Origin: Candidatus Parcubacteria bacterium
GTDB taxonomy: Bacteria; Patescibacteriota; Patescibacteriia; PEXW01
Reading direction: 5' to 3'
Length of the DNA: 64,000 bases
NCBI GenBank assembly: GCA_003597955.1
Contig: QZJU01000021.1
Location: forward strand, 47,952-111,951
Shown: in pieces, positions 41,772 through 56,098 of the stretch
How the letters are laid out: each line of letters begins with the position of its first letter
Position numbering within the stretch: the first letter of the stretch is position 1
Notes under the pieces: generated by a model
The model's input: only the letters and a program-made list of their open reading frames with translations
Database searches by the model: none
What the model was told of the DNA's origin: nothing
Program-made: the position numbers and the translations under genes

Positions 41772-42212
41772 TTATTTTTGATTTTTCTTGAAACGGATAA
41801 AAGCTTTAATGGTTTTGTCATAAGTTTCGGCAAGATTTTTCTTTAGAGCTTGATCCGGCGCCACCCATAAATATTTGTTTAATTCACGGGTTTCCAACCT
41901 TATTCGTCCGCCTTTGGTGCGGCAGTAAATATCAAAATAAATAAAATGGGCCGGACGGTAAAAGTCCTTAGAATTTATCAGTTCGCCCCAGGCGACAATC
42001 GCAATCGCTTTTAACTTTAAACCCGTTTCTTCTTGGGCTTCCCGAATTTGAGAGGTCAGAATGTTTTCACCGGGTTCCAGGTGTCCGCCCGGCAGAGTCC
42101 ATTTGTTATGCCATTTTTGGGAGCGCACCAGAAGAATTTGTCCTTTTGGATTCTCAATAATTGCTGAACCGACAACTTCAATACCTTTAGTAAACTTGAG
42201 GTTTTTTTTCAT
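41772..42212 (-). CDS. NUDIX hydrolase
   Basis: 146 aa. The Nudix box is GGHLEPGENILTSQIREAQE then ETGL. VVGSAII...ILLVRSQKWHNKWTLPGG is the usual lead-in strand, similar to MutT-type enzymes. Substrate unknown. ATG 42212 is used; TTG 42221 is an alternative. rnj starts 4 bp after, so they form an operon. A tRNA-like element lies immediately upstream. Confidence 0.82.
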   Translation of the reverse strand: MKKNLKFTKGIEVVGSAIIENPKGQILLVRSQKWHNKWTLPGGHLEPGENILTSQIREAQEETGLKLKAIAIVAWGELINSKDFYRPAHFIYFDIYCRTKGGRIRLETRELNKYLWVAPDQALKKNLAETYDKTIKAFIRFKKNQK

Positions 42213-42233
42213 TGCTGACAAATAATTTTAAAA

Positions 42234-42322
42234 TGGTGTCCTAGGTAGGTGGGACTCGTACTCCCATGACCTTGCGGTCATCCGCCTAGGCGGGACGCGT
42301 CAGTTGGTGCACTCTACTGGAC
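42234..42322 (-). pseudogene. Degenerate class II tRNA-like element (tRNA-Leu-like)
   Basis: 89 nt on the minus strand ending in ACCA. It shares a GCAA-capped variable arm (TGACCGCAAGGTCA) and T-arm order with the intact tRNA-Leu at 47276, matching 20 of 29 aligned bases there. A 17-nt arm before it can pair four bases with CTA in the anticodon position. However the T-loop (TACGAGT), the D-loop without GG, and a poorly paired acceptor are all abnormal. It may be a decayed tRNA at an old attachment site or a non-canonical tRNA. Confidence 0.4.
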
Positions 42323-42440
42323 AAGTTTAGAACCCTGAAATGGGAGGATTATTACCGCTTTCCAGAAGTAGCGCTACAGCAAATGAAATCTTTATTGCAA
42401 ATGTACCCTGCTCCAATTTCCTAATACTAGCTTAAAAGCG

Positions 42441-42469
42441 TTTAAAAATCAAGGGAAAAGTGGTAAAAT
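42441..42469 (+). promoter_or_regulatory. Candidate promoter at left of element
   Basis: TTTAAA at 42441-42446, 17-bp spacer, TAAAAT at 42464-42469, 31 nt before ATG 42501. Confidence 0.4.
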
Positions 42470-42500
42470 AGAAGACAAGTAAAGATGTAACGAAGAAGTA

Positions 42501-43055
42501 ATGAAAAAAGAGCAAAATCATCCACAAACTAGGGAGCGTATCGCACGGTTGTTGATAGACAAGGGGTTTTTAGAAATGCTGGAAAAAGGGCGTACAAAAA
42601 AGAATGAGGAGTTAGATAAGTGGATTTGTGAGATACGAAAAAACTTCAATCTTTCAAAGTATTATCACAGAGTGTTGCAGACAATAATTTCTATTCCTGA
42701 CATTCAATATCAAAAGTTCTTAGCTGGCACAGCGTGTATCATCGCATTACCTGATGAGTGTCGTAAGAAAAATTATTTTGCAATAGAAGTATTCCCTGAA
42801 ACATCAGAAAAAGACGTGGTAAGAGCATTTTCGGCAATACGCAAGAAATATCACGAATCAGATGAAATACCAAAACGGCTTCGAACCTCACCAAGTTTTT
42901 CCAAACAACAGTATGCCTTACAGAGGAGCGAAGATGGAGCAACGTATAAGAAAATTGCAGAAGAATTGAAGCAAATGGGTTATTCTACGACCTATTTTGA
43001 GGTTTCAGATTTAATAAGAAAAATCAAAAACAAGGCTAAGTCGGTTTCTGGTTGA
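42501..43055 (+). CDS. Unknown element protein
   Basis: 184 aa, not recognised. It is strongly charged and mostly helical. The C-terminal part (about 135-175, GATYKKIAEELKQMGYSTTYFEVSDLIRK) looks like a helix-turn-helix. Two Cys residues lie mid-protein (AGTACIIALPDECRK). It is the first gene of the island and could be a regulator; no family assignment is possible. Confidence 0.55.
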   Translation: MKKEQNHPQTRERIARLLIDKGFLEMLEKGRTKKNEELDKWICEIRKNFNLSKYYHRVLQTIISIPDIQYQKFLAGTACIIALPDECRKKNYFAIEVFPETSEKDVVRAFSAIRKKYHESDEIPKRLRTSPSFSKQQYALQRSEDGATYKKIAEELKQMGYSTTYFEVSDLIRKIKNKAKSVSG

Positions 43056-43128
43056 TAACGATATAGTTATCGGCCTTATACGTGATTTTGATAGGTAGAT
43101 AGACTGTGGGTAGAAAGCTCACAGTCTT

Positions 43129-43305
43129 ATGAAACTAAGTAGCCAAAAATTATCTGAATTAAAGCAAATCATACAGGATGATTTTGGTGTCAAGCTTGAT
43201 GACCAATTCGTTTTTGTTATTGGCAGTGAACTTATTGCACTATTTGACCATTTGTACTCTTACGATTTTCAACAAAAAAATGAGCAACCTAACGAGCGTA
43301 ACTGA
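43129..43305 (+). CDS. Small 58-aa element protein
   Basis: ATG-started frame of 58 codons, MKLSSQKLSELKQIIQDDF then GVKLDDQFVFVIGSEL. It has a regular amphipathic start and acidic middle, and its end overlaps the start of the SpoVG-like gene by 26 bp in another frame. The overlap and coding-like composition argue it is real. No function is known. Confidence 0.5.
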   Translation: MKLSSQKLSELKQIIQDDFGVKLDDQFVFVIGSELIALFDHLYSYDFQQKNEQPNERN

Positions 43306-43573
43306 AATATCAATCACGCCTATTAGACCACGAGATGGTCTTACCGCTTTTGCCTCTTTTGTCCTTGACGATAAGTATTTCGTTGCAGGCGTAGCAATTT
43401 TTACAAAATTGAGCGGTGGCTTCCGCTTGGTTTTCCCGACCCGCAAAATTGGTCAAACCAATCTCAATTTGTTTAATCCAATCAAGCGTGAAGTTGGCGA
43501 GATAATTGAGAGAAAAGTTAGTGAAGAATTAACAAAACTGTATGATAGACAACTTACGGAATATAAAACTTAG
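43280..43573 (+). CDS. SpoVG-like protein
   Basis: 97 aa. The SpoVG fold pattern is visible: VTEISITPIRPRDGLTAFASFVLDD, then FRLVFPTRKIG, then NPIKREVGEIIERKVSEEL, matching the family's PS/P-[ST]-K block and I.HPI..... end. SpoVG proteins bind nucleic acid, act as regulators in Firmicutes, and occur on phages and plasmids. ATG 43280 is chosen because only sequence from here matches the family. Confidence 0.65.
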   Translation: MSNLTSVTEISITPIRPRDGLTAFASFVLDDKYFVAGVAIFTKLSGGFRLVFPTRKIGQTNLNLFNPIKREVGEIIERKVSEELTKLYDRQLTEYKT

Positions 43574-43961
43574 AGTCCCTAAATGTTGGCAGGATAAAAG
43601 GATAATGCGTTTTTTGAGAAAACATTATTCGGGGAAAAAACGTACAACCGCCATAGCAATTTATGTAACTCTAAGCGAGATGGCAAGTAATGCTAATTCA
43701 GAAACCTTTAAGTCCTATTACAGTCAAATTGGTGAGATGGCTGGTAAATCATCATCAACCATCAAGCGTTATTGCAATGATTTTATCAAGCTGACTATTT
43801 TAGAAAAAAAGAATCATAAGAAGGGGAAGCACAACTTAGCTAATCAGTGGTCGTTACTAGCATACTCTCCAATGAGATTACAGTCGGGTCGTAATAATGA
43901 CCTGACCCCTAATAAAATTAGTCTCAACCAAGGCCAAAATAATAACCCCGACTCCATTTAA
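43542..43961 (+). CDS. Winged-helix element protein (replication/regulation type)
   Basis: 139 aa. Residues ~20-95 form a helix-turn-helix typical of plasmid or phage initiator-like proteins: TTAIAIYVTLSEMAS, YYSQIGEMAGKSSSTIKRYCNDFIKLTILEKK. The Asn/Gln-rich tail is probably unstructured. The start overlaps the SpoVG-like gene by 32 bp. It may be the element's replication or copy control factor, but a specific role is not shown. Confidence 0.5.
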   Translation: MIDNLRNIKLRVPKCWQDKRIMRFLRKHYSGKKRTTAIAIYVTLSEMASNANSETFKSYYSQIGEMAGKSSSTIKRYCNDFIKLTILEKKNHKKGKHNLANQWSLLAYSPMRLQSGRNNDLTPNKISLNQGQNNNPDSI

Positions 43962-44060
43962 TATACTGACCACATCTCTACTTACCTAATGACCCACTAA
44001 TAGAATATATTACTTAGAATTATTTACTAAGAAGGATACCCCCCATAAGCTAATCCTTAT

Positions 44061-44429
44061 ATGAAGTGTCAATTTACAAAACAAGACGGCCAACAATGTG
44101 AGGGAAATGCAATATATGATAGCCAGTATTGTTTTTCGCATAACCCTGACAGTCGGCAGGCAAAGAATGAGGCAGTCTTAAACGGCGGGCTTGCCCTCAA
44201 AAAAATAAAGTTTGAATTAGAAGAAGTCGAAATAAAATCTATTCAGGACATCACTGCACTTTTGGCCAAAACAATAAATGAACTTAGGACTAACAAAATC
44301 CCACCCAAAATCGCCGTTAATATAGGTTATTTATCAAACATCATGATTACATCTCTTAAGGAGGGTGAGATTGAAAAAAGATTGGAGGTGATAGAAAATG
44401 CAATCAAACTACATAAGTCGAATGAATAA
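44061..44429 (+). CDS. Small zinc-finger protein
   Basis: 122 aa. The N-terminus CQFTKQDGQQCEGNAIYDSQ followed by YCFSH is a C-x8-C-x9-C-x3-H finger seen in many phage and mobile-element proteins. A helical region (~45-120) follows. DNA or RNA binding is plausible. The next gene overlaps its end. Confidence 0.6.
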   Translation: MKCQFTKQDGQQCEGNAIYDSQYCFSHNPDSRQAKNEAVLNGGLALKKIKFELEEVEIKSIQDITALLAKTINELRTNKIPPKIAVNIGYLSNIMITSLKEGEIEKRLEVIENAIKLHKSNE

Positions 44430-44979
44430 AATTATTTCCGAAATGGATTTACCAGCGATGGATGAGCATTTTTTCAATAGTGGAGGTTTAAGTTTTTTAA
44501 ATGGGCTACCAAAAGGCAAAGTGACGTCGTTACTTTTGTATGGGACATACCAATCCTCAAGGTTTTATCTTGTCACGGTAGCGTTTAATAAAATTAAACT
44601 CTTGACGTATATCAGCGAGCTGATTGCAGAAGAGTTTGAAAACCTAATTTTGTTATCATACCTCTTTAGTGTTTCAGGCGATGAGAAAACTGTGAGGATG
44701 AGAAAATTATTCTCTGATAAGAACCCCGATGACACACTAAAGCAAATCTCCCAGTTAGTAGAGAGGCAATCGGTTTTACTAGAGGAATTATCGAAGTTGA
44801 AACCACTAATAAAGGAAAACCACAACACACCTTATGTTAGCGAGCAATTTGACGGCTGCAACTTGAAGGATTTGGAAAATAAAATCCTTAATGAGTCATT
44901 TTCAGTTGGTTTGGAGACAGCCAATTTAATAGCAAAAAAACTCTTAATTTCGTTGACAAATAGCCTATATGAGGCATAA
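44398..44979 (+). CDS. Unknown element protein
   Basis: 193 aa, mostly helical, no recognised family. A Leu/Ser/Glu-rich middle (LVERQSVLLEELSKLKPLIKE) suggests a coiled coil. ATG 44422 (MNKIISEMD) is an alternative start; 44398 overlaps the zinc-finger gene. It sits just before a strong inverted repeat. Confidence 0.5.
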   Translation: MQSNYISRMNKIISEMDLPAMDEHFFNSGGLSFLNGLPKGKVTSLLLYGTYQSSRFYLVTVAFNKIKLLTYISELIAEEFENLILLSYLFSVSGDEKTVRMRKLFSDKNPDDTLKQISQLVERQSVLLEELSKLKPLIKENHNTPYVSEQFDGCNLKDLENKILNESFSVGLETANLIAKKLLISLTNSLYEA

Positions 44980-44998
44980 TTAAGGCACAATCTAAATA

Positions 44999-45075
44999 GC
45001 GGTGACACGCATTCAAGCCCCCGTAAGGGTGGGTCGAAGCGTGTCACCGCATTAAGCCCATACCTGCGGGGGCTT
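44999..45075. repeat. 12-bp inverted repeat and adjacent hairpin
   Basis: GCGGTGACACGC (44999-45010) pairs perfectly with GCGTGTCACCGC (45039-45050). A second hairpin AAGCCC/GGGCTT follows at 45054-45075. No T-tract follows, so a terminator is unlikely. It is the only strong palindrome within the element. Confidence 0.65.
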
Positions 45076-45143
45076 CAATTTCCAGACAAATATGCAGGTC
45101 ATTAACAGTCAATTCTTTAAGAAAATAATTAACCAAAAGAAGT

Positions 45144-45743
45144 ATGGACAACCAACCTTCTCAAGAGCAAAAACCAAAAAGTAAGTTAAAAAGATTGGGT
45201 AAAAGAGTTTTAGCCGTAATAGTTGGGCTAGTGGCTTTGTTTGTCATTCTGATAATTGTTGCAGTTGCCACAGATAACAAAAATAGTAATAGTAACAGTG
45301 CTGGTAGTGAAAATAATAACGCAAGCAGCGTGGAGATGACCTATGAGAGTAAACTTGAAAAAGCAATCACTGATGAGATTGGCGCAAAAAATAATATGGA
45401 TAAACCAAAAGTCAGGAGCGTTAAGGTGATGAATCCTAATGAAACGTTGGTTGAAATCAACGGCGACGAGAACCTGACAAGTGGGATGACTAAAAAAGGA
45501 ATTGATAAGGACATCCTCAACACGTTCAAGGCTATATTCGCCACTGATACAAACCCCAATCTCCTTGCGTCTGTTGATGTTTATTTCCCGACAGTGGACA
45601 AATACGGCAATGAATCCGATAACCGTGTTATCCGTGCTCTCCTTAAACGGGAAACTGCTAACAAGATACAGTGGGATAATATCTTGTTAGAAAATATCCC
45701 AGCCGTGTTCGATGATTACGATGAGTATGTAAAGTTTGAGTAA
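45144..45743 (+). CDS. Membrane-anchored unknown protein
   Basis: 199 aa. A basic cytoplasmic start (KPKSKLKRLGKR) leads to one membrane span (VLAVIVGLVALFVILIIVAV, ~22-42), an Asn/Ser linker, and an outer alpha/beta domain with the ending NILLENIPAVFDDYDEYVKFE. No family is recognised. The recombinase starts 2 bp after its stop. Confidence 0.6.
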   Translation: MDNQPSQEQKPKSKLKRLGKRVLAVIVGLVALFVILIIVAVATDNKNSNSNSAGSENNNASSVEMTYESKLEKAITDEIGAKNNMDKPKVRSVKVMNPNETLVEINGDENLTSGMTKKGIDKDILNTFKAIFATDTNPNLLASVDVYFPTVDKYGNESDNRVIRALLKRETANKIQWDNILLENIPAVFDDYDEYVKFE

Positions 45744-45745
45744 CC

Positions 45746-47329
45746 ATGAATGCCGTCCTATTCGCCAGAGTGTCCAGTAAAGAGCAGGAGGAGTCAGGGT
45801 ACTCCCTCCCCGCTCAAGAAAAACTCCTTAAAGAATACAGCGAGAGGAAAAGTTTTAGCATTGCTAAGATATTTTCCATTTCAGAGTCAGCAACTGGCAA
45901 AAAGCAACGGGAGACATTCAACGAGATGATTGAGTATGTGACCAAAGGCAATATCAAGCACATCATCTGCGAGAAAGCCGACAGGCTGACCCGAAACTTC
46001 AAGGATATGGTGATGATTGATGACTGGCTGGGTAAGGACGCAGAACGGCAGGTGCACCTTGTTAAAGACTCTCTCGTCTTGCACCAAAACTCCCGCTCCC
46101 AAGAAAAGCTTAACTGGGGTATCCGTGTGCTGTTCGCAAAAAATTACGTTGATAATCTGGCCGAGGAGGTCAAGAAAGGCAAGCGTGAAAAAGTAGCGCA
46201 AGGATGGTATCCGACACGGCCACCTTTAGGGTATATTTCCGTGGGTGAAAGAAGCCACAGGATTTGCGTACCTGACGAACATAAAGCCCCTCTTATCAGG
46301 AAAATGTTTGAGTGGTACGCAACAGGCAATTACTCCCTAAAGAAGGTGGTGGAAATGATGTATGAAACGGGCTTAAGGACAATCCACAATACCAAGGTAC
46401 AAAAAAGTCGGCTTCACCAGATTTTGTCTGACCCCTTTTACTGCGGAAAAATTGTCTGGAAGGGTGAAGAATATCAGGGGAAACAAGAAAAAATCGTGTC
46501 AGAGGAGTTGTTTCAGCAAGTCCAAGCAATCCTTAAGCAAAAAACGACCCCGCACTACCGCAAACACCTCTCGCTGTTTAAGGGGTTAATCAGGTGCAGT
46601 GAATGTGGCGGGTTAATCACTTGGGAAACGCACAAAGGGCATTGGTACGGTCACTGCAACCATTACCGTAACTGCTCCAAAAAGGAGTATGTGAGGCAAG
46701 AAAAACTTGAGGAACAACTACTCAACCAATTTGTAGCTATAGCGCCTAAAAGCGATAGGTTGGTCAAATGGATACAGGAAGCGCTCAAGGAAAGCCACGC
46801 AGACGAGATTACGTTCAATACCCAAGCCCGTGATGAGCTTAACCGTCGCTATGAACACGCCCAGAAGCGCCTAGAAGTCCTCTACGACGACAAAATTGAC
46901 GGTAAGATAACTACGGAGTTCTACGAGGCCAAGTTCAAACAGTACAGCGCAGAGCAGAAGGCTGTTTTGAAATCACTTAATGACCACGATGACGCCAAGT
47001 CCAAGTATTACGAGCTTGGTGTTAATGTGCTCGAGCTGGCTCATAGGGCAAAAGAAATCTACGAGCACCCCAAAATGCTGGTTGAGCAGAGACGGACGCT
47101 ACTTAACCATATTTTTTCGAACCTGCGCTTAAATGGCGATAGATTAGAGGTTTCTTACACGCCAGTAGTTGAGGTTTTAGCGCAATTGACTCCCGCCCTC
47201 AATAAAACTTTCGAACTCCAGAAAAGTACCGCAAACACAACACTAACCCTTCAAAGTATGAACGGTTCTAGTGTTTGGTGCCGGAGAGAGGACTTGAACC
47301 TCCAAGGGCTTGCGCCCACACGGCTCTGA
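45746..47329 (+). CDS. Large serine recombinase (site-specific integrase)
   Basis: 527 aa. The resolvase domain (1-150) has the catalytic Ser in LFARVSSKEQEESGYSLPAQ, and EKADRLTRN. The Recombinase domain has PPLGYI and a zinc ribbon (CSECGG...CNHYRNC) at ~283-310. A coiled-coil (~355-415) follows. The last ~19 residues (WCRREDLNLQGLAPTRL) are encoded by the antisense of tRNA-Leu, so the native C-terminus probably ended differently before insertion or uses chromosomal sequence. It would integrate and excise the island. Confidence 0.9.
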   Translation: MNAVLFARVSSKEQEESGYSLPAQEKLLKEYSERKSFSIAKIFSISESATGKKQRETFNEMIEYVTKGNIKHIICEKADRLTRNFKDMVMIDDWLGKDAERQVHLVKDSLVLHQNSRSQEKLNWGIRVLFAKNYVDNLAEEVKKGKREKVAQGWYPTRPPLGYISVGERSHRICVPDEHKAPLIRKMFEWYATGNYSLKKVVEMMYETGLRTIHNTKVQKSRLHQILSDPFYCGKIVWKGEEYQGKQEKIVSEELFQQVQAILKQKTTPHYRKHLSLFKGLIRCSECGGLITWETHKGHWYGHCNHYRNCSKKEYVRQEKLEEQLLNQFVAIAPKSDRLVKWIQEALKESHADEITFNTQARDELNRRYEHAQKRLEVLYDDKIDGKITTEFYEAKFKQYSAEQKAVLKSLNDHDDAKSKYYELGVNVLELAHRAKEIYEHPKMLVEQRRTLLNHIFSNLRLNGDRLEVSYTPVVEVLAQLTPALNKTFELQKSTANTTLTLQSMNGSSVWCRREDLNLQGLAPTRL

Positions 47330-47362
47330 ACCGTGCGTGTATACCAGTTTCACCACTCCGGC
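47276..47362 (-). tRNA. tRNA-Leu (CAG)
   Basis: 87 nt with encoded CCA. Acceptor GCCGGAG/CTCCGGC, discriminator A, anticodon loop TTCAGAG (CAG at 47328-47326), variable arm GGGC-GCAA-GCCC, and T-arm GGAGG-TTCAAGT-CCTCT. It reads CUG. The 3' half overlaps the end of the serine recombinase frame. Confidence 0.95.
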
Positions 47363-47390
47363 AATAGACCATGCGCTCGTATTATCCCTT

Positions 47391-47414
47391 GTTTGCCAGT
47401 TCCGCCACTAGGGC
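47391..47414 (-). pseudogene. tRNA-Leu 5' fragment
   Basis: On the minus strand GCCCTAGTGGCGGAACTGG plus CAAAC matches the acceptor 5' strand and D-arm of class II tRNA-Leu, then stops matching. Its acceptor GCCCTAG could pair 6 of 7 with CTAGGAC of the tRNA-like element at 42234. It lies 28 nt upstream of the intact tRNA-Leu. Confidence 0.55.
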
Positions 47415-47509
47415 AGTATTTAAGGATTCCACCCCGCCACAGGACATACTGAAGTGCGTCGGCGGGATGTCGTCCCTAGCAGGCTTAAATTTTTATACAG
47501 CCTGGGCGC

Positions 47510-49830: not shown

Positions 49831-51690
49831 TCAGAGATTCTCCAGGAGTTTTTCGGTTAATTTCGGACCTACCGCATTTGTCAGTTCTTTTTCGGAAGCC
49901 TGGCGGATCTTTTTTACTGAACCGAAACGACTTAATAATAATTTTTTGTGCTTTGGGCCCAGACCATGGATTTCGTCCAAAGCTGATTCAACAGCGGCCT
50001 TTTGGTGTTTGCGTCGGAAACCGGCAATGGAAAAACGGTGGGCCTCGTCGCGGATCCTTTCAATTAAAAACAAACCATCCGAGGGATTTGGCAATTTTAC
50101 CGGCGGTCTGCCAGGCAAGAAGATTTTTTCGCGATCCGCTTGTTGGGGCAGGTTTTGGTGGCCGCCTTTGGCGATGGCTACGATTGGAACAGAAAATTTA
50201 TTTCCGAGTTTTTGTTTGACAATGTTAAGCTGACCCAGGCCGCCGTCAAGAATAATTAAGTCGGGTAGAGGCAAGTGGGAAGACTTGGGATTAGGAACCA
50301 AGAACTTTGAACCGCGCCCTCCTGGTTTATTGTCTGCTGTCCCTCGTTCTTGGTTTGCGTGCGTGAAGCGTCTCGCAAGCATTTCTGCTAGCATGGCCGG
50401 GTCATTGGCGACGGTAACGGTTTTAATATTAAACCGGCGGTAAAACTTTTTTTCTGGCCTGCCATTAACGAAAACCACCATGCTGCCGCTCGAATGCTGG
50501 CCCATGAGGTTAGCCACATCAAAAGCCTCGATTCTTTTTGGCGGGTTCGGCAGCCTTAAAGCATCGCTTAATTCCTTTAGGCCTTTCCTAAGACGCAAAT
50601 CATCTTTTTCAAAACTGGCTTTTTGCTGCCGCAGGAATTCGGCCGCGTTCAAATTACTGACCGCAAGCAGTTTTTTCAGCCGGCCTCTTTGCGGAACCAA
50701 GATTTTTGCGTTTAAGATGCTTTTCAAGACTTTGGAGACCTTCAGCATAAAAGGCAGAATGAGTTTCTTGGGTAAATCCGTGGCTTGGGCGTAAAATTGT
50801 TCGATAAAACTGATTAAAATCCCGTTGGGGTTTTCATTCTTAATATGTTGCAAAAGTACGGTTTGTTTATCCAGCAGTTTGCCGGCGCGAATGACCAAGC
50901 GATTGACCGCAGCCAAGCTGCCCGAAACCGCATAGCCGATAATGTCCAAATTTTGTTCCTGACCTAAGATGACATTTTGTCTTTGCATCAGCCGGCTTAT
51001 GGCATGCAAGCGATCGCGTAGCAAGGCGGCGCGTTCAAACTGTTTTTGCTCGCTGGCTTTGCGCATTTTTTCGGTCAGGTCTTTTTCGATTACTCGGCTG
51101 TCGCCGCTAAGGAATTTGGTTAAGCCGTTGATGATTTCGCGGTAATTTTTCTGGCTTTGCTCATCCACGCCGTGGCCCAGACAGCGGTTTAAATGAAATT
51201 CAAAACAGGGTTTTTCCGGCGGGTTGGCGCAATTTTTGTAGGGGAAGATTTTTTTCAACAACCTTAAAGTTTCGTAAACTGCTGCCGATGAAACAAAAGG
51301 GCCAAAGTATCGAGAGCCGTCTTTGGCCAGACGGCGGACCGCGCTGACTGAAGGGTAAGTCTCGGCTAGCGCAATTTTTATGTATAGGAAATTCTTATCG
51401 TCTCGCATGACAATGTTGTAGGGTGGGTGGAATTTTTTAATCAGGGTGGTTTCCAACAGCAGGGCTTCCAATTCACTGGCTGTCACAATGGTTTCGATTT
51501 TGGCGATTTTGGCAACCATGTTTTTCTTGGCCGCCGAAAGTTGGGTATTTTTATTAAAATACGAACTGACCCGCGATTTTAATTTTATGGCCTTGCCTAC
51601 ATACAAAATTTCCCCGGTTTGGGAAAAGAATTGATAAACCCCGGGTTTTTTAGGCAGCACGGAAATTTGGTTTTTTAGACTAGGATTCAT
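49831..51690 (-). CDS. uvrC: UvrABC excinuclease subunit C
   Basis: 619 aa. It makes both incisions in nucleotide excision repair. The GIY-YIG domain is N-terminal (PGVYQFF...ILYVGKA). A UVR motif is near 200-240. The RNase H-like domain has EAFDVANLMGQHSSGSMVVF and LIILDGGLGQL, and a helix-hairpin-helix pair (IHGLGPKHKKLLLSRFGS) ends the protein. It is divergent from uvrA, 243 bp away. Confidence 0.96.
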   Translation of the reverse strand: MNPSLKNQISVLPKKPGVYQFFSQTGEILYVGKAIKLKSRVSSYFNKNTQLSAAKKNMVAKIAKIETIVTASELEALLLETTLIKKFHPPYNIVMRDDKNFLYIKIALAETYPSVSAVRRLAKDGSRYFGPFVSSAAVYETLRLLKKIFPYKNCANPPEKPCFEFHLNRCLGHGVDEQSQKNYREIINGLTKFLSGDSRVIEKDLTEKMRKASEQKQFERAALLRDRLHAISRLMQRQNVILGQEQNLDIIGYAVSGSLAAVNRLVIRAGKLLDKQTVLLQHIKNENPNGILISFIEQFYAQATDLPKKLILPFMLKVSKVLKSILNAKILVPQRGRLKKLLAVSNLNAAEFLRQQKASFEKDDLRLRKGLKELSDALRLPNPPKRIEAFDVANLMGQHSSGSMVVFVNGRPEKKFYRRFNIKTVTVANDPAMLAEMLARRFTHANQERGTADNKPGGRGSKFLVPNPKSSHLPLPDLIILDGGLGQLNIVKQKLGNKFSVPIVAIAKGGHQNLPQQADREKIFLPGRPPVKLPNPSDGLFLIERIRDEAHRFSIAGFRRKHQKAAVESALDEIHGLGPKHKKLLLSRFGSVKKIRQASEKELTNAVGPKLTEKLLENL

Positions 51691-51815
51691 GGCAGCTAAA
51701 GTATATCAAGGATGATAGAACTACGAATTACGAATACTGTGATTTTAGTTTTTTCAAATCACGCCCACAAACTATACGGCCAACCACACCTAAGCCCAAA
51801 ACCACCCTATACCCC

Positions 51816-51845
51816 TTGACCCACTCTTGACACATCTGCTACACT
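51816..51845 (+). promoter_or_regulatory. Candidate uvrA promoter
   Basis: TTGACC at 51816-51821, 18-bp spacer, TACACT at 51840-51845. A GC-rich CCCGC/GCGGG hairpin lies between it and the start. Confidence 0.45.
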
Positions 51846-51932
51846 ATTTCCACTTTCTGCCGCTTTGGCAGACCCGCTTCTGGCGGGCTGGCATGAAACT
51901 CGCATTATTTTTTAATTGAAATATCGAAAAAA

Positions 51933-54803
51933 ATGGCAGAACTTATTAGGATCCGTGGCGCCCGGGTCCACAATCTAAAGAATGTTTCGCTGGATATCCC
52001 CCGGAATAAATTTGTGGTCTTCACCGGCCTTTCTGGTTCAGGCAAGTCGTCTTTGGCTTTTGACACGATTTACGCCGAAGGCCAAAGGCGTTATGTGGAG
52101 TCCCTGTCGGCATACGCGCGGCAGTTTTTAGGTTTGATGGACAAGCCCGATGTGGACCAAATCGACGGCCTTTCCCCGGCCATAGCCATTGATCAAAAAT
52201 CCGTTTCTCACAATCCGCGTTCCACCGTGGGCACCGTGACGGAAATTTACGATTACCTTCGTTTGCTTTACGCTCGCATCGGAATTCCGCATTGCCCCAA
52301 GTGCGGCCGGGAAGTGCAAAGACAAACCATTGAACAAATTCGTAAGCAAATCTTGGCTTGGCCGATTGGCACGCAAATAATGGTATTGGCGCCCATGGTC
52401 AGGGACCAAAAAGGTGAGCACAAGCACATTTTTCAGAATATCCGTAAAGCCGGCTTTGTGCGCGTCAGGCTTGATGGAATCGTCACGGCTCTGGAGGAGG
52501 CCGAAAGGCTGGAATTGGACAAGCAAAAAAGACACTCGATTGAAATCGTGATCGACCGTTTGACTTTGGCCAAGGATTTGGAAAAACAAAGGCTGACCGA
52601 GTCTTTGGAAACCGCCGGTCGGTTGGGCAATGGCTTGATTCTCGTCACCCGTCAGGCGCAAAACGGCAAAGCCATCAACATTGACACTTTGTTCAGTCAG
52701 AACTTCGCTTGCCCGCACGACGGCACGAATCTGCCACCGATTGAACCCAGGAATTTTTCTTTCAATTCCCCGCACGGCGCTTGCCCGGACTGCACGGGTT
52801 TGGGCACCAAGCTAGAAATCGACCCCAAGCTGGTGATTCCCAATCCTAAACTGACCATTGCTCAAGGCGCGATCCGGCCTTGGTCGCGTTCGGCCTCCAG
52901 CCAGACTTGGTATATGCGGATTATCGAGGCCGTGGCCCGGGAACTGAAGTTTTCTTTGAATACACCCGTAAAAGATTTGCCAAAAAAAGCTCTGGACGCG
53001 GTGCTTTACGGCACCGGCGAAAAGCAGTTTGATGTGAACAACACTTCGGGCGAAGGCAAGGTGCGCTCGTTTATGACCACTTACGAAGGCGTGATTCCGA
53101 ATCTGATGCGGCGCTACAAAGAAACTGATTCTGACTATATCCGCTCGGAAATTGAAAGGTATATGCGCGTTTGGCCCTGCCCGACCTGCGAGGGCCGGCG
53201 CTTGAAGCCGGAGATTTTGGGCGTAACCGTGGCCGGCCAAAATATCGCCAAGCTCACAGCCTGCACCGTGGAAAAAGCCGGCAAATTTTTTGCGGATTTG
53301 GCAAAGCCCAAAAGTTTGAGCGAGAAAGAAGAAAAGATCGCTAGGCAAATATTAAAAGAGATTCGTTCGCGTCTGGGCTTTTTGCAGAATGTCGGCTTGG
53401 ACTACCTGACCTTGGATCGCGCGGCCTCCACGCTTTCTGGTGGGGAGTCGCAGAGAATCAGCCTGGCCACGCAAATCGGCTCTTCTTTGGTCGGGGTTTT
53501 ATACATTTTAGATGAGCCCTCAATCGGCCTGCACCAAAGAGACAATGCCAAATTAGTCACGACTTTGAAGACCCTGCGGGATCTGGGCAACACAGTAATT
53601 GTGGTCGAACATGATGAAGAAACGATTTTGGCGGCTGATCATGTGGTGGATATCGGACCCGGGGCCGGGGAGCACGGCGGGCAGGTGGTGGCCGCGGGCT
53701 CGCCCAAGCAGATTGAAAAAAGTCGGCATTCCCTGACCGGCCAGTATCTTTCCGGCCGAAAACGCATTGAGATCCCCGCGCGAGCCCGCAAGGGCAATGG
53801 TAAGGCCATCATAATCAAAGGCGCTCAGGAATTTAATTTGCAAAATCTGACCGTTAAAATTCCTTTGGGCATGTTTGTTTGCGTCACCGGCGTTTCCGGT
53901 TCGGGCAAGTCGACTTTAGTCACCGACATTCTTTCGCGAGCATTGGCGCAGAAATTTTACAACGCCAAAGATTTGCCGGGTAAACACCAAGAGATAAAAG
54001 GCCTGGAAAATTTAGACAAGGTCATAACTATTGATCAGTCGCCGATCGGCCGGACACCCCGTTCCAACCCGGCTACTTACACCGGAGTGTTTACGCCCAT
54101 CCGGGATTTGTTCACCCAAATTCCTGAAGCCAAAGCTCGGGGCTTTGGGCCCGGCCGGTTCTCATTTAATGTGCCGGGCGGCCGCTGCGAAGCCTGCGAG
54201 GGCGACGGCCTGGTTAGGATTGAAATGCATTTTCTGCCGGATGTGTATGTGGAGTGCGAAGAGTGTCATGGCCGCCGTTATTCTTCCCAGGTTCTGGAGA
54301 TTATGTACAAAGGCAAAAACATCGCGGATGTCTTAAATATGACCGTGGAGGAGGCATTGCAATTTTTCCGCAACATTCCAGCCATTAAAACCAAACTTCA
54401 GACCTTGCTGGATGTGGGTTTGGGCTATATTCATTTGGGCCAAAGCGCCACCACACTTTCCGGCGGCGAAGCTCAGCGGGTGAAATTGGCCACCGAGCTC
54501 TCGCGGCGCGCCACTGGCCGGACTTTATATATTTTGGACGAACCGACCACGGGCCTGCATATGGACGATGTCAAAAGATTGCTGAATGTTTTGAGCCAAT
54601 TGGTGGATAAAGGCAATACGGTGATCGTTATCGAGCATAATCTGGATGTTATTAAGTGCGCGGATTGGGTGATTGACCTGGGCCCGGGCGGGGGCGACAA
54701 AGGCGGTAAGCTGATTGCCGAAGGCCGGCCGACTGAAGTCGCTAAGACTAAAATCAGCTATACCGGGCAGTATCTGAAGAAATTATTTGCTCACAAAAAA
54801 TAA
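51933..54803 (+). CDS. uvrA: UvrABC excinuclease subunit A
   Basis: 956 aa, full length. Two ABC modules find DNA damage. Walker A motifs are GLSGSGKSS (~31) and GVSGSGKST (~656); signatures are LSGGESQR and LSGGEAQR. Zinc sites appear as CPKC...CPHDGT, CPTCEG, and CEACEGDG...CEECHGRRY. No SD. csrA converges on its end. Confidence 0.98.
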
Positions 54804-54828
54804 ACCCCTGGTCAATGACCTGGGGTTT
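54802..54828. terminator. Terminator shared by uvrA and csrA
   Basis: 12-bp stem AAACCCCTGGTC/GACCTGGGGTTT with one mismatch, A-rich on the left and T-rich on the right. It overlaps the last codons of csrA. Confidence 0.8.
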
Positions 54829-55030
54829 TATGCTTGCCGAGTAACCTTTTTATAAAGCCCGGGGTTTTTTCAGCTTCGATCTTGGCTTTAATTTCCTCGC
54901 GGTGGATTATGACATTGGCGGGAGCGTCAATACCGATACGGACTTGCCTGCCTTGAATTCCGAGAACCGTGAGAATTATATCGTCTCCGATGATTATTCT
55001 TTCCCCCGATTTCCGCGTCAGAATCAGCAT
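54812..55030 (-). CDS. csrA: Carbon storage regulator CsrA
   Basis: 72 aa. [18 protein letters not shown] and the C-terminal [18 protein letters not shown] motif are intact. CsrA dimers bind GGA motifs in mRNA leaders, often over the SD. Its own leader has AGGAGG just before ATG, a typical self-repression target. CsrA is patchy in CPR, so its presence is worth noting. Confidence 0.95.
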
Positions 55031-55096
55031 AAGGCCTCCTATGGCCTGGGAATAAGCGATTTTTGTGGTATTTTTTAAGGTTTACAAGTTTAAGCG

Positions 55097-55124
55097 AGTA
55101 TAACAGGCTAACTTTTCTTGTCAA
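55097..55124 (-). promoter_or_regulatory. csrA promoter
   Basis: Minus strand TTGACA (55124-55119), 16-bp spacer, TATACT (55102-55097) with extended -10 TG. It is among the strongest promoters in the window. The leader is ~60 nt. Confidence 0.75.
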
Positions 55125-55180
55125 GAATCTTAGCATTTTTAGCGATTGAGCTTTTGGTTCTTGGACGGTAGCATATAGTC

Positions 55181-56098
55181 ATGAACGAGTTGGAATCGGC
55201 AATTTTAAAAACCCTGGTTTATTTTGACATTTTCGCCTACCCTTTAACGGCGTGGGAAATTTGGAAGTGGTTGTACGGTCAGAAAGCCGAATTCTTCGAA
55301 GTTGAAAAAGCTCTGCAAAACAGCCAGGCTTTGCGCGGCCAGCTTGAAATGACTTCGGGTTTTTACCATTTGGCGAGTCGGGGGGGGACGGTAAGGTCGC
55401 GTCAGGATAGGTACGAATTGGCTTTGCAGAAATTTCAAATCGCCCAACCTTTTATTAAAAAGTTGTCTCGTTTGCCTTACGTAAAATTCGTCGCCATTTG
55501 TAATTCATTAGGACTGTTTAACGCCCAAGGCCCCAGCGACATCGACCTTTTCATTGTGGTTAAGCCCGGTCACATTTGGACCGCGCGTTTGCTGGCCGCG
55601 GGTTATGCCAAACTCCGAAAATTGCGGCCGACCCAGAAATTCCGACAAAACAAATTTTGTCTGTCTTTTTACCTGACCGAAGATGCCTTGAATGTACAAC
55701 CGTTGTTATTTCCCGTAGACCCGTATTTCGCATTTTGGTTAGCTACTTTGGTTCCCGTCTTTGACCCAGAAAAAATCCTGGAAAGACTCTACGCTTCGAA
55801 TGCCTGGCTGTTCCAAATTTTGCCAAACTTGCTGCCGCGCAACATCGCCCGCCAGCGCGAGATCGCTCGGTCTAACTTGCAAACCCTGGGCGAGAAGTTT
55901 TTTAACTTTGGTTTTTGGGAAAAACTTGCCGAAAAGCTTGAGCAGAAATGGCTGCCCTCCAACCTGAAAAAACTAGCGAATCTTGATTCGAGAGTCGTGC
56001 TAAACGACCAAGTGCTGAAATTTCACGATAATGACCGACGCCAGGAATACGCCCGGCTTTTTCAAGCCAAACTTCAAACTTTGGGGCTGAATGTATGA
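55181..56098 (+). CDS. Nucleotidyltransferase-like protein
   Basis: 305 aa. An N-terminal winged-helix region (~1-65) precedes a nucleotidyltransferase core with GPSDIDLFIVV (~115-130), the G-S-D-x-D metal motif. The C-terminal half is helical with many Phe/Trp. A start over the next gene (ATGA) couples it to the O-antigen-ligase-like gene, so a role in surface polysaccharide is possible. Substrate unknown. Confidence 0.55.
   Translation: MNELESAILKTLVYFDIFAYPLTAWEIWKWLYGQKAEFFEVEKALQNSQALRGQLEMTSGFYHLASRGGTVRSRQDRYELALQKFQIAQPFIKKLSRLPYVKFVAICNSLGLFNAQGPSDIDLFIVVKPGHIWTARLLAAGYAKLRKLRPTQKFRQNKFCLSFYLTEDALNVQPLLFPVDPYFAFWLATLVPVFDPEKILERLYASNAWLFQILPNLLPRNIARQREIARSNLQTLGEKFFNFGFWEKLAEKLEQKWLPSNLKKLANLDSRVVLNDQVLKFHDNDRRQEYARLFQAKLQTLGLNV

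Follow-up and report, generated by a model that had tools for sequence, protein, structure and literature searches.

The genomic islands catalogued by Islander/TIGER (Hudson et al., 2015; PMC4383910) are recognised by an intact tRNA gene, an integrase gene next to it and, at the opposite boundary, a short direct repeat copied from the 3′-end of the tRNA, and their integrases are tyrosine recombinases; tRNA targeting by serine integrases was described as unknown by this reference database in 2015. A serine integrase with an RNA-gene 3′-target operates in the ssrA islands of Dehalococcoides, DsiB (McMurdie et al., 2011; PMC3146451), which insert serially at the tmRNA gene and possess a 20-bp repeat and a six-gene module with a second recombinase. 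In a deep-sea relative, the integrase gene contains an ssrA repeat. Suicidal archaeal integrases of the SSV type (reviewed in PMC8371274) carry attP inside the integrase gene, so that integration alters the gene; they belong to the tyrosine recombinases, are split into two parts upon integration and have been described as exclusive to archaea. Here we describe a 4,971-bp element encoding a large serine recombinase (LSR), found in a 64,000-nucleotide stretch of Candidatus Parcubacteria bacterium (contig QZJU01000021.1, positions 47,952 to 111,951), hereafter the window. It is highly probable that the locus was built in two layers, an older tRNA-Leu nested inside another tRNA-Leu and a younger serine-integrase element at the CCA end of the inner one. 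This reading draws, in the sequences, on the ends of the element, its tails and their conservation in relatives, the host tRNA, and nesting where the element is missing.

The element spans 42304-47275, a length that follows from the presence at both ends of the core TTGGTGC, the antisense of the tRNA 3′-end. A repeat search detected no long direct repeats at the element ends, only this 7-bp core. A sequence-only reading of the window had delimited a 5-kb island at 42330-47414; the island exists, but that left edge lies 20-26 bases too far in, the core being at 42304-42310. As in Islander islands, an intact tRNA stands at one end and a direct, if short, repeat of its 3′-end at the other, whereas the enzyme is a serine recombinase. 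The latter, already recognised in the sequence-only reading, is confirmed by three Pfam domains, all above cut-off and in the order typical of LSRs: the Resolvase catalytic domain (PF00239, 72.7 bits), Recombinase (PF07508, 69.4 bits) and a zinc ribbon (PF13408, 32.8 bits). It also matches a PHROG integrase family (E 4.9e-76). A search of solved structures gave no match at E 1e-5. This recombinase presumably catalyses integration here, and may recognise the T-arm, because the tRNA antisense TTCGAAC has a counterpart in attP (TTTAGAACC, TTCGAAC) lying about 6 bases farther out. A symmetric arrangement of attP, with the arms GGTTCTA/TAGAACC, can also be made out; it was not used to fix the crossover because the centre of these arms lies outside the shared core.

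The tRNA at the right end is the host's own. ARAGORN calls a single tRNA-Leu at the locus, tRNA-Leu(CAG), which the sequence-only reading had correctly placed intact at the element edge, and its right-hand neighbour is the gene for an SBP_bac_5 protein. This protein was searched for in the genus, family, order and class, and the DNA past its end was read at 129 loci; tRNA-Leu(CAG) lies just beyond it at 86 of them. The family's three other genomes yielded no comparable recombinase. Because the tRNA is kept beside SBP_bac_5 and the family lacks such a recombinase, the intact tRNA was not brought by the element; it is a host gene that stays intact upon integration, with the element adjoining its 3′ (TGG/CCA) end. 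In the interval between tRNA-Leu and SBP_bac_5, the window carries a GC-rich palindromic repeat (47424-47480, GACATCCCGCC..GGCGGGGTGGAATCC), which is common to a relative in the same family (L007).

Outside the inner tRNA and the element lie two pieces of a second tRNA-Leu. These pieces, given in the sequence-only reading as 47391-47414 and 42234-42280, are real 5′- and 3′-halves, with somewhat larger extents (Table 1), and their acceptor strands pair at 6 of 7 positions as claimed (GCCCTAG/CTAGGAC). The genus has one other genome, whose homologous 5′-piece reads GTCCTAG and would pair 7 of 7. The halves were scored with separate 5′-half and 3′-half models, derived from the intact tRNA-Leu of relatives, and with the element left out of the window; in antisense and block-shuffled controls these models gave no hit of at least 8 bits. 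When the element is left out, the window reads as the outer 5′-half, the intact tRNA and then ACTGACGCGTCCCGCCTAGGCGGATGACC... as the outer 3′-half. The Rfam search detected no group I intron between the halves in the window. Many outer copies carry mutations or extra palindromes, so decay is likelier than a functional split tRNA, and an outer tRNA acting as a functional split or spliced tRNA was rejected.

The same nesting, an intact tRNA-Leu inside two halves of another tRNA-Leu, is found in several relatives with no recombinase at the locus. One such layout is that of L112, GGGCGAGTGGTGAAACTGGCAGA-TTCACCCCGTTAGAAA-tRNA-Leu-TTCTAACGGGGCAG-GCGTAGCGTTCAGAGCGCTATGG...CTCGCCCACCA, where the outer tRNA is complete save for the insertion, the inner one being directly bordered by inverted arms. 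In both L112 and L051 the acceptors of the two halves pair fully and the interval between the halves lacks a recombinase, and similar layouts, with differing arms and varying decay of the outer copy, occur at L006, L039, L127, L094, L138 and other loci. Since the halves enclose an intact tRNA-Leu in relatives without a recombinase there, the nesting at the Leu locus predates the element. Nesting is iterated at L129, which has three tandem copies of the 5′-half plus arm, and at L138, which has repeated units of arm plus 3′-half.

The sequence-only reading had explained the same pieces differently: the element would have split a tRNA-Leu by inserting inside it and carried the intact tRNA-Leu(CAG) as a replacement. 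Such an event could leave halves flanking the whole interval and pairing 6 of 7, with an intact tRNA-Leu at the edge, as seen here. However, the intact tRNA is a conserved host gene, and halves enclose intact tRNA-Leu elsewhere with no element. In addition, to judge from the core and the integrase tail, the element ends on the right at the CCA of the inner tRNA and not at the break of the outer one, and genome G001 comes close to being an element-free relative in which outer halves already enclose the inner tRNA. A split of the tRNA by the element is therefore very unlikely indeed. The sequence-only reading had itself named the same gene order in relatives without recombinase as evidence that would count against it, and the nested loci without an adjacent recombinase come near to this. 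What stands of it is a small integrative serine-recombinase element at a tRNA-Leu, together with pieces derived from one broken tRNA-Leu; what is not supported is the causal account joining them.

It could also be supposed that no nesting process exists, that the pieces are debris of decayed tandem tRNA-Leu copies and that the element inserted among them by chance. tRNA genes do duplicate in tandem, extra fragments are present at some loci, and a control alphaproteobacterium also has a few tandem copies. Tandem decay, however, does not lead one to expect strict polarity. At 87 loci (86 relatives and the window; threshold 8 bits), 5′-halves were found upstream only (14/87) and 3′-halves downstream only (16/87), with 0 and 0 on the wrong sides. 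Inverted arms with a score of at least 9 abut the inner tRNA-Leu at 6 of 83 loci, beyond chance (mean 0.3 in shuffled sequences, maximum 2 in 300 shuffles), and in two genomes of the class arms scoring at least 8 flank 12 of 66 tRNAs, against 0 of 30 in the control (P 0.016; see below). The debris explanation is thus quite unlikely.

According to the two-layer account, the older layer is the position of tRNA-Leu(CAG), in this lineage, inside a tRNA-Leu broken in the D-loop/anticodon region, the 5′-half of which is at 47415-47391 and the 3′-half at 42299-42234. The younger layer is the insertion of the 4,971-bp element, presumably by the LSR, at the CCA end of the inner tRNA, which puts it between this tRNA and the outer 3′-half. 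The account predicts an empty site in which the inner tRNA-Leu is joined directly to the outer 3′-half, ...CCGGCACCAACTGACGCG... / CGTCAGTTGGTGCCGGAGAG, and a circular junction reading ...SSVWCTLLDKFRT... / ...AGTGTTTGGTGCACTCTACTGG....

The ends of the element further place attP within the gene for the integrase. On the right, the frame of the LSR enters the opposing tRNA-Leu (WCRREDLNLQ...) and stops in its anticodon-arm region, the integrated recombinase reading ...SSVWCRREDLNLQGLAPTRL before the stop. At the left end, an open frame starting from the TGG of the core reads WCTLLDKFRTLKWEDYYRFPEVALQQMKSLLQMYPAPIS up to a stop, the displaced in-frame tail beginning WCTLLDKFRTLKW.... Both frames join at the W codon, so that the recombinase of the circular form would end in the left-end tail, reading ...SSVW-CTLLDKFRTLKWEDYYRFPEV... 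up to its stop; integration would send this tail to the far end and substitute tRNA-antisense residues, ...SSVW-CRREDLNLQGLAPTRL and a stop. With attP inside the LSR gene, integration thereby swaps the C-terminus of the integrase. In-frame tails are likewise present at the left ends of four relatives, WGDLVDDFRTLDW / WGDLVDDFRTLDWPTVHR (His), WLPYKNVFRTLDW / WLPYKNVFRTLDWEKIAE (Asn), WLALVEDFRTANW / WLALVEDFRTANWTEIIK (Gln) and KLPLADIFRTKYY / KLPLADIFRTKYYDIIV (Asn), each adjoining a copy of the 3′-end of its own tRNA. A profile of these four tails, made with the window excluded, ranks 42305 first in the window (E 0.011, the next being E 10) and also picks up tails at L231, L232 and L226.

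The embedded ssrA repeat of the deep-sea relative (PMC3146451) is a partial precedent for an att site in an integrase gene. The present elements differ from the Dehalococcoides islands in that tRNAs of many isotypes, here tRNA-Leu and not tmRNA, serve as targets, in the lack of a second recombinase and in a traceable tail swap. Unlike the SSV-type integrases, which are split by their own attP, this bacterial enzyme is a serine recombinase by Pfam, and only its C-terminal tail, about 39 residues long, is exchanged. The swap may have a regulatory effect, and tail exchange upon integration could act as a built-in switch, comparable to the suicidal integrases of archaea yet found in bacteria and in the other enzyme family. 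On contig C16 of the window's own genome (G000), an apparent tandem integration at tRNA-Lys is seen at about 50872-56031 (L002, L003). The recombinase one element upstream of the tRNA-Lys-integrated one ends ...LWCSLFEKIRTEF..., so that this outer enzyme has regained an FRT-type tail, which the next element provides; such a junction would be expected from serial integration at one tRNA.

A recombinase frame that runs into an opposing tRNA is typical of the family. The recombinase survey covered 48 loci with relatives, taken from GTDB genomes and the phylum. At 28 of the 48, the recombinase stop lies within an opposing tRNA gene, of seven isotypes (Leu, Asn, Asp, Arg, His, Gln and Trp). Five further loci (L009, L013, L192, L194 and L215) abut a group I intron by Rfam, as would be expected if intron-bearing tRNA genes are targets; tmRNA was looked for as a target and none was found. 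G000, the genome of the window, has two more relatives, which terminate in tRNA-Lys and tRNA-Gln. Taken together, these sequences document a serine integrase clade that targets the 3′-ends of many different tRNA genes. No paper combining tRNA, serine integrase and Candidate Phyla Radiation was found in the open-access library searched. Since the integrase gene itself contains the att site, the clade supplies attP/attB pairs, which are directly testable and of practical use for DNA insertion.

Several points weigh against the two-layer account. First, the core repeat is only 7 bp long, and the exact crossover base is not fixed. Second, there is neither a same-species genome without the element nor a circular-junction read for comparison, and a near-identical empty site was not found among four genomes from the genus-, family- and order-level searches. 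Third, the window tail scores weakly when left out of the model (E 0.011), and a convincing left end is missing for some relatives (L224, L233 and others). Fourth, the shuffle test of acceptor pairing gave 3 full pairings in nine loci (mean 1.0, P 0.04), a marginal and underpowered outcome, and the polarity test took its place. Finally, a Nudix gene (41772-42221) sits between RNase J and the outer 3′-half and was not seen there in the same-family loci read (L006, L007 and L008), so that further changes have occurred on the left flank.

Nesting extends beyond tRNA-Leu. In G000, tRNA-Tyr (L086, 1501-1584), tRNA-Ala(TGC) (L061) and tRNA-Trp (L242) are each intact and enclosed by the two halves of an older same-isotype copy. 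Inverted arms also surround tRNA-Thr, Phe, Pro and Ser, each of which has one or more halves of the matching isotype next to it (L241, L243 and L246 among the loci). The 12 of 66 tRNAs with inverted-repeat arms scoring at least 8 come from G000 and a second genome of the class, and do not represent a class-wide rate because the second genome was picked for showing Leu nesting; the 30 control tRNAs are those of the alphaproteobacterium. Some second tRNA copies (L243, L245, L008, L038 and L097) contain, in the T-loop or D-loop, inserts consisting of a palindrome only (for example CCGGCAAAGCCGG, CCCGCC..GGCGGG), from which one might guess at hairpin-based insertion as the origin of nesting. We consider it possible, if somewhat short of probable, that an undescribed process is at work, in which hairpin units tipped with a complete tRNA would enter the D-loop or anticodon loop of a same-isotype tRNA, break it and replace it; the essential tRNA would be renewed while the old copy decays, and the integrase element would exploit the fresh end. 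No description of nested tRNA genes was found in the open-access library searched. If confirmed, nested tRNAs would be essential tRNA genes of reduced genomes repeatedly overwritten by their own copies, which would matter for annotating tRNAs, for understanding their evolution and for choosing integration sites.

Table 1. Features of the element and of the nested tRNA-Leu locus, in window coordinates
Feature	Position	Strand	Evidence or remark
Outer tRNA-Leu 3′-half: anticodon-arm remnant with short palindrome, variable arm, T arm, acceptor CTAGGAC, CCA	42234..42299	-	20.3 bits, 3′-half model
Left core copy TTGGTGC (attL)	42304..42310	+	7-bp direct repeat of tRNA 3′-end
Displaced C-terminal integrase tail WCTLLDKFRTLKWEDYYRFPEVALQQMKSLLQMYPAPIS with stop, in frame with the integrase over the circular junction	42305..42424	+	Homologous tails in relatives; profile
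184-aa ORF	42501..43055	+	Weak HTH_23 signal, under Pfam cut-off
58-aa ORF, small conserved element gene	43129..43305	+	Profile relatives in about 20 other related-recombinase loci
SpoVG-family protein	43178..43573	+	PF04026, 31.1 bits (cut-off 29.6)
Winged-helix protein resembling DnaD-like helicase loaders and replication initiators	43542..43961	+	PHROG 186, E 6.5e-6
122-aa ORF	44061..44429	+	No recognised family in Pfam or PHROG
193-aa ORF	44398..44979	+	No recognised family in Pfam or PHROG
199-aa protein with putative N-terminal membrane segment	45144..45743	+	PHROG 8263 family, E 2.1e-15
Large serine recombinase; final residues (after SSVW) encoded by opposing tRNA-Leu	45746..47329	+	PF00239, PF07508, PF13408; frame and stop
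Right core copy TTGGTGC (attR), within integrase gene, at tRNA 3′-end	47275..47281	+	
Intact tRNA-Leu(CAG), inner tRNA, host gene and integration target	47276..47362	-	ARAGORN; kept beside SBP_bac_5 in class
Outer tRNA-Leu 5′-half: acceptor GCCCTAG, D arm	47391..47415	-	18.5 bits, 5′-half model

The cargo is mostly unrecognised and matches no relaxase or capsid in Pfam and PHROGs, in agreement with the sequence-only reading. Searches of these two databases gave no relaxase or conjugation gene among eight ORFs tested and no portal or terminase among the element ORFs. The 58-aa protein is a candidate directionality factor or regulator, and SpoVG, which recurs in two other related elements, may together with the replication-like genes maintain the circle; the element is probably a small integrative one, and possibly replicating. 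A comparable set, a small ORF, SpoVG and a helix-turn-helix gene followed by a related serine recombinase, is found on the Legionella adelaidensis plasmid NZ_LR134433.1, where the recombinase C-terminus (...WLPGQDLNL) runs into tRNA-like sequence. That plasmid differs in that a tyrosine recombinase and AbiE-like genes are also present and in the distance of its serine recombinase (29% identity). A new class of element, proposed earlier on the grounds of cargo, is not upheld, the small gene, SpoVG and the integrase recurring in related elements and on this plasmid.

PHROG matches to helicase-loader and integrase families, and a distant relative encoded on a short phage-like faecal contig, would suit a decayed prophage or phage satellite that retained only the integrase and early genes. 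The missing capsid, terminase and portal matches speak against this, as do the small gene common to related elements, SpoVG in three cases, and a viral contig collection that gave no match; a phage remnant is thus unlikely, and the element is better regarded as a small integrative one. Between two of its cargo genes, at about 44998-45052, lies a strong inverted repeat or hairpin (GCGGTGACACGC...GCGTGTCACCGC), possibly an origin or a terminator.

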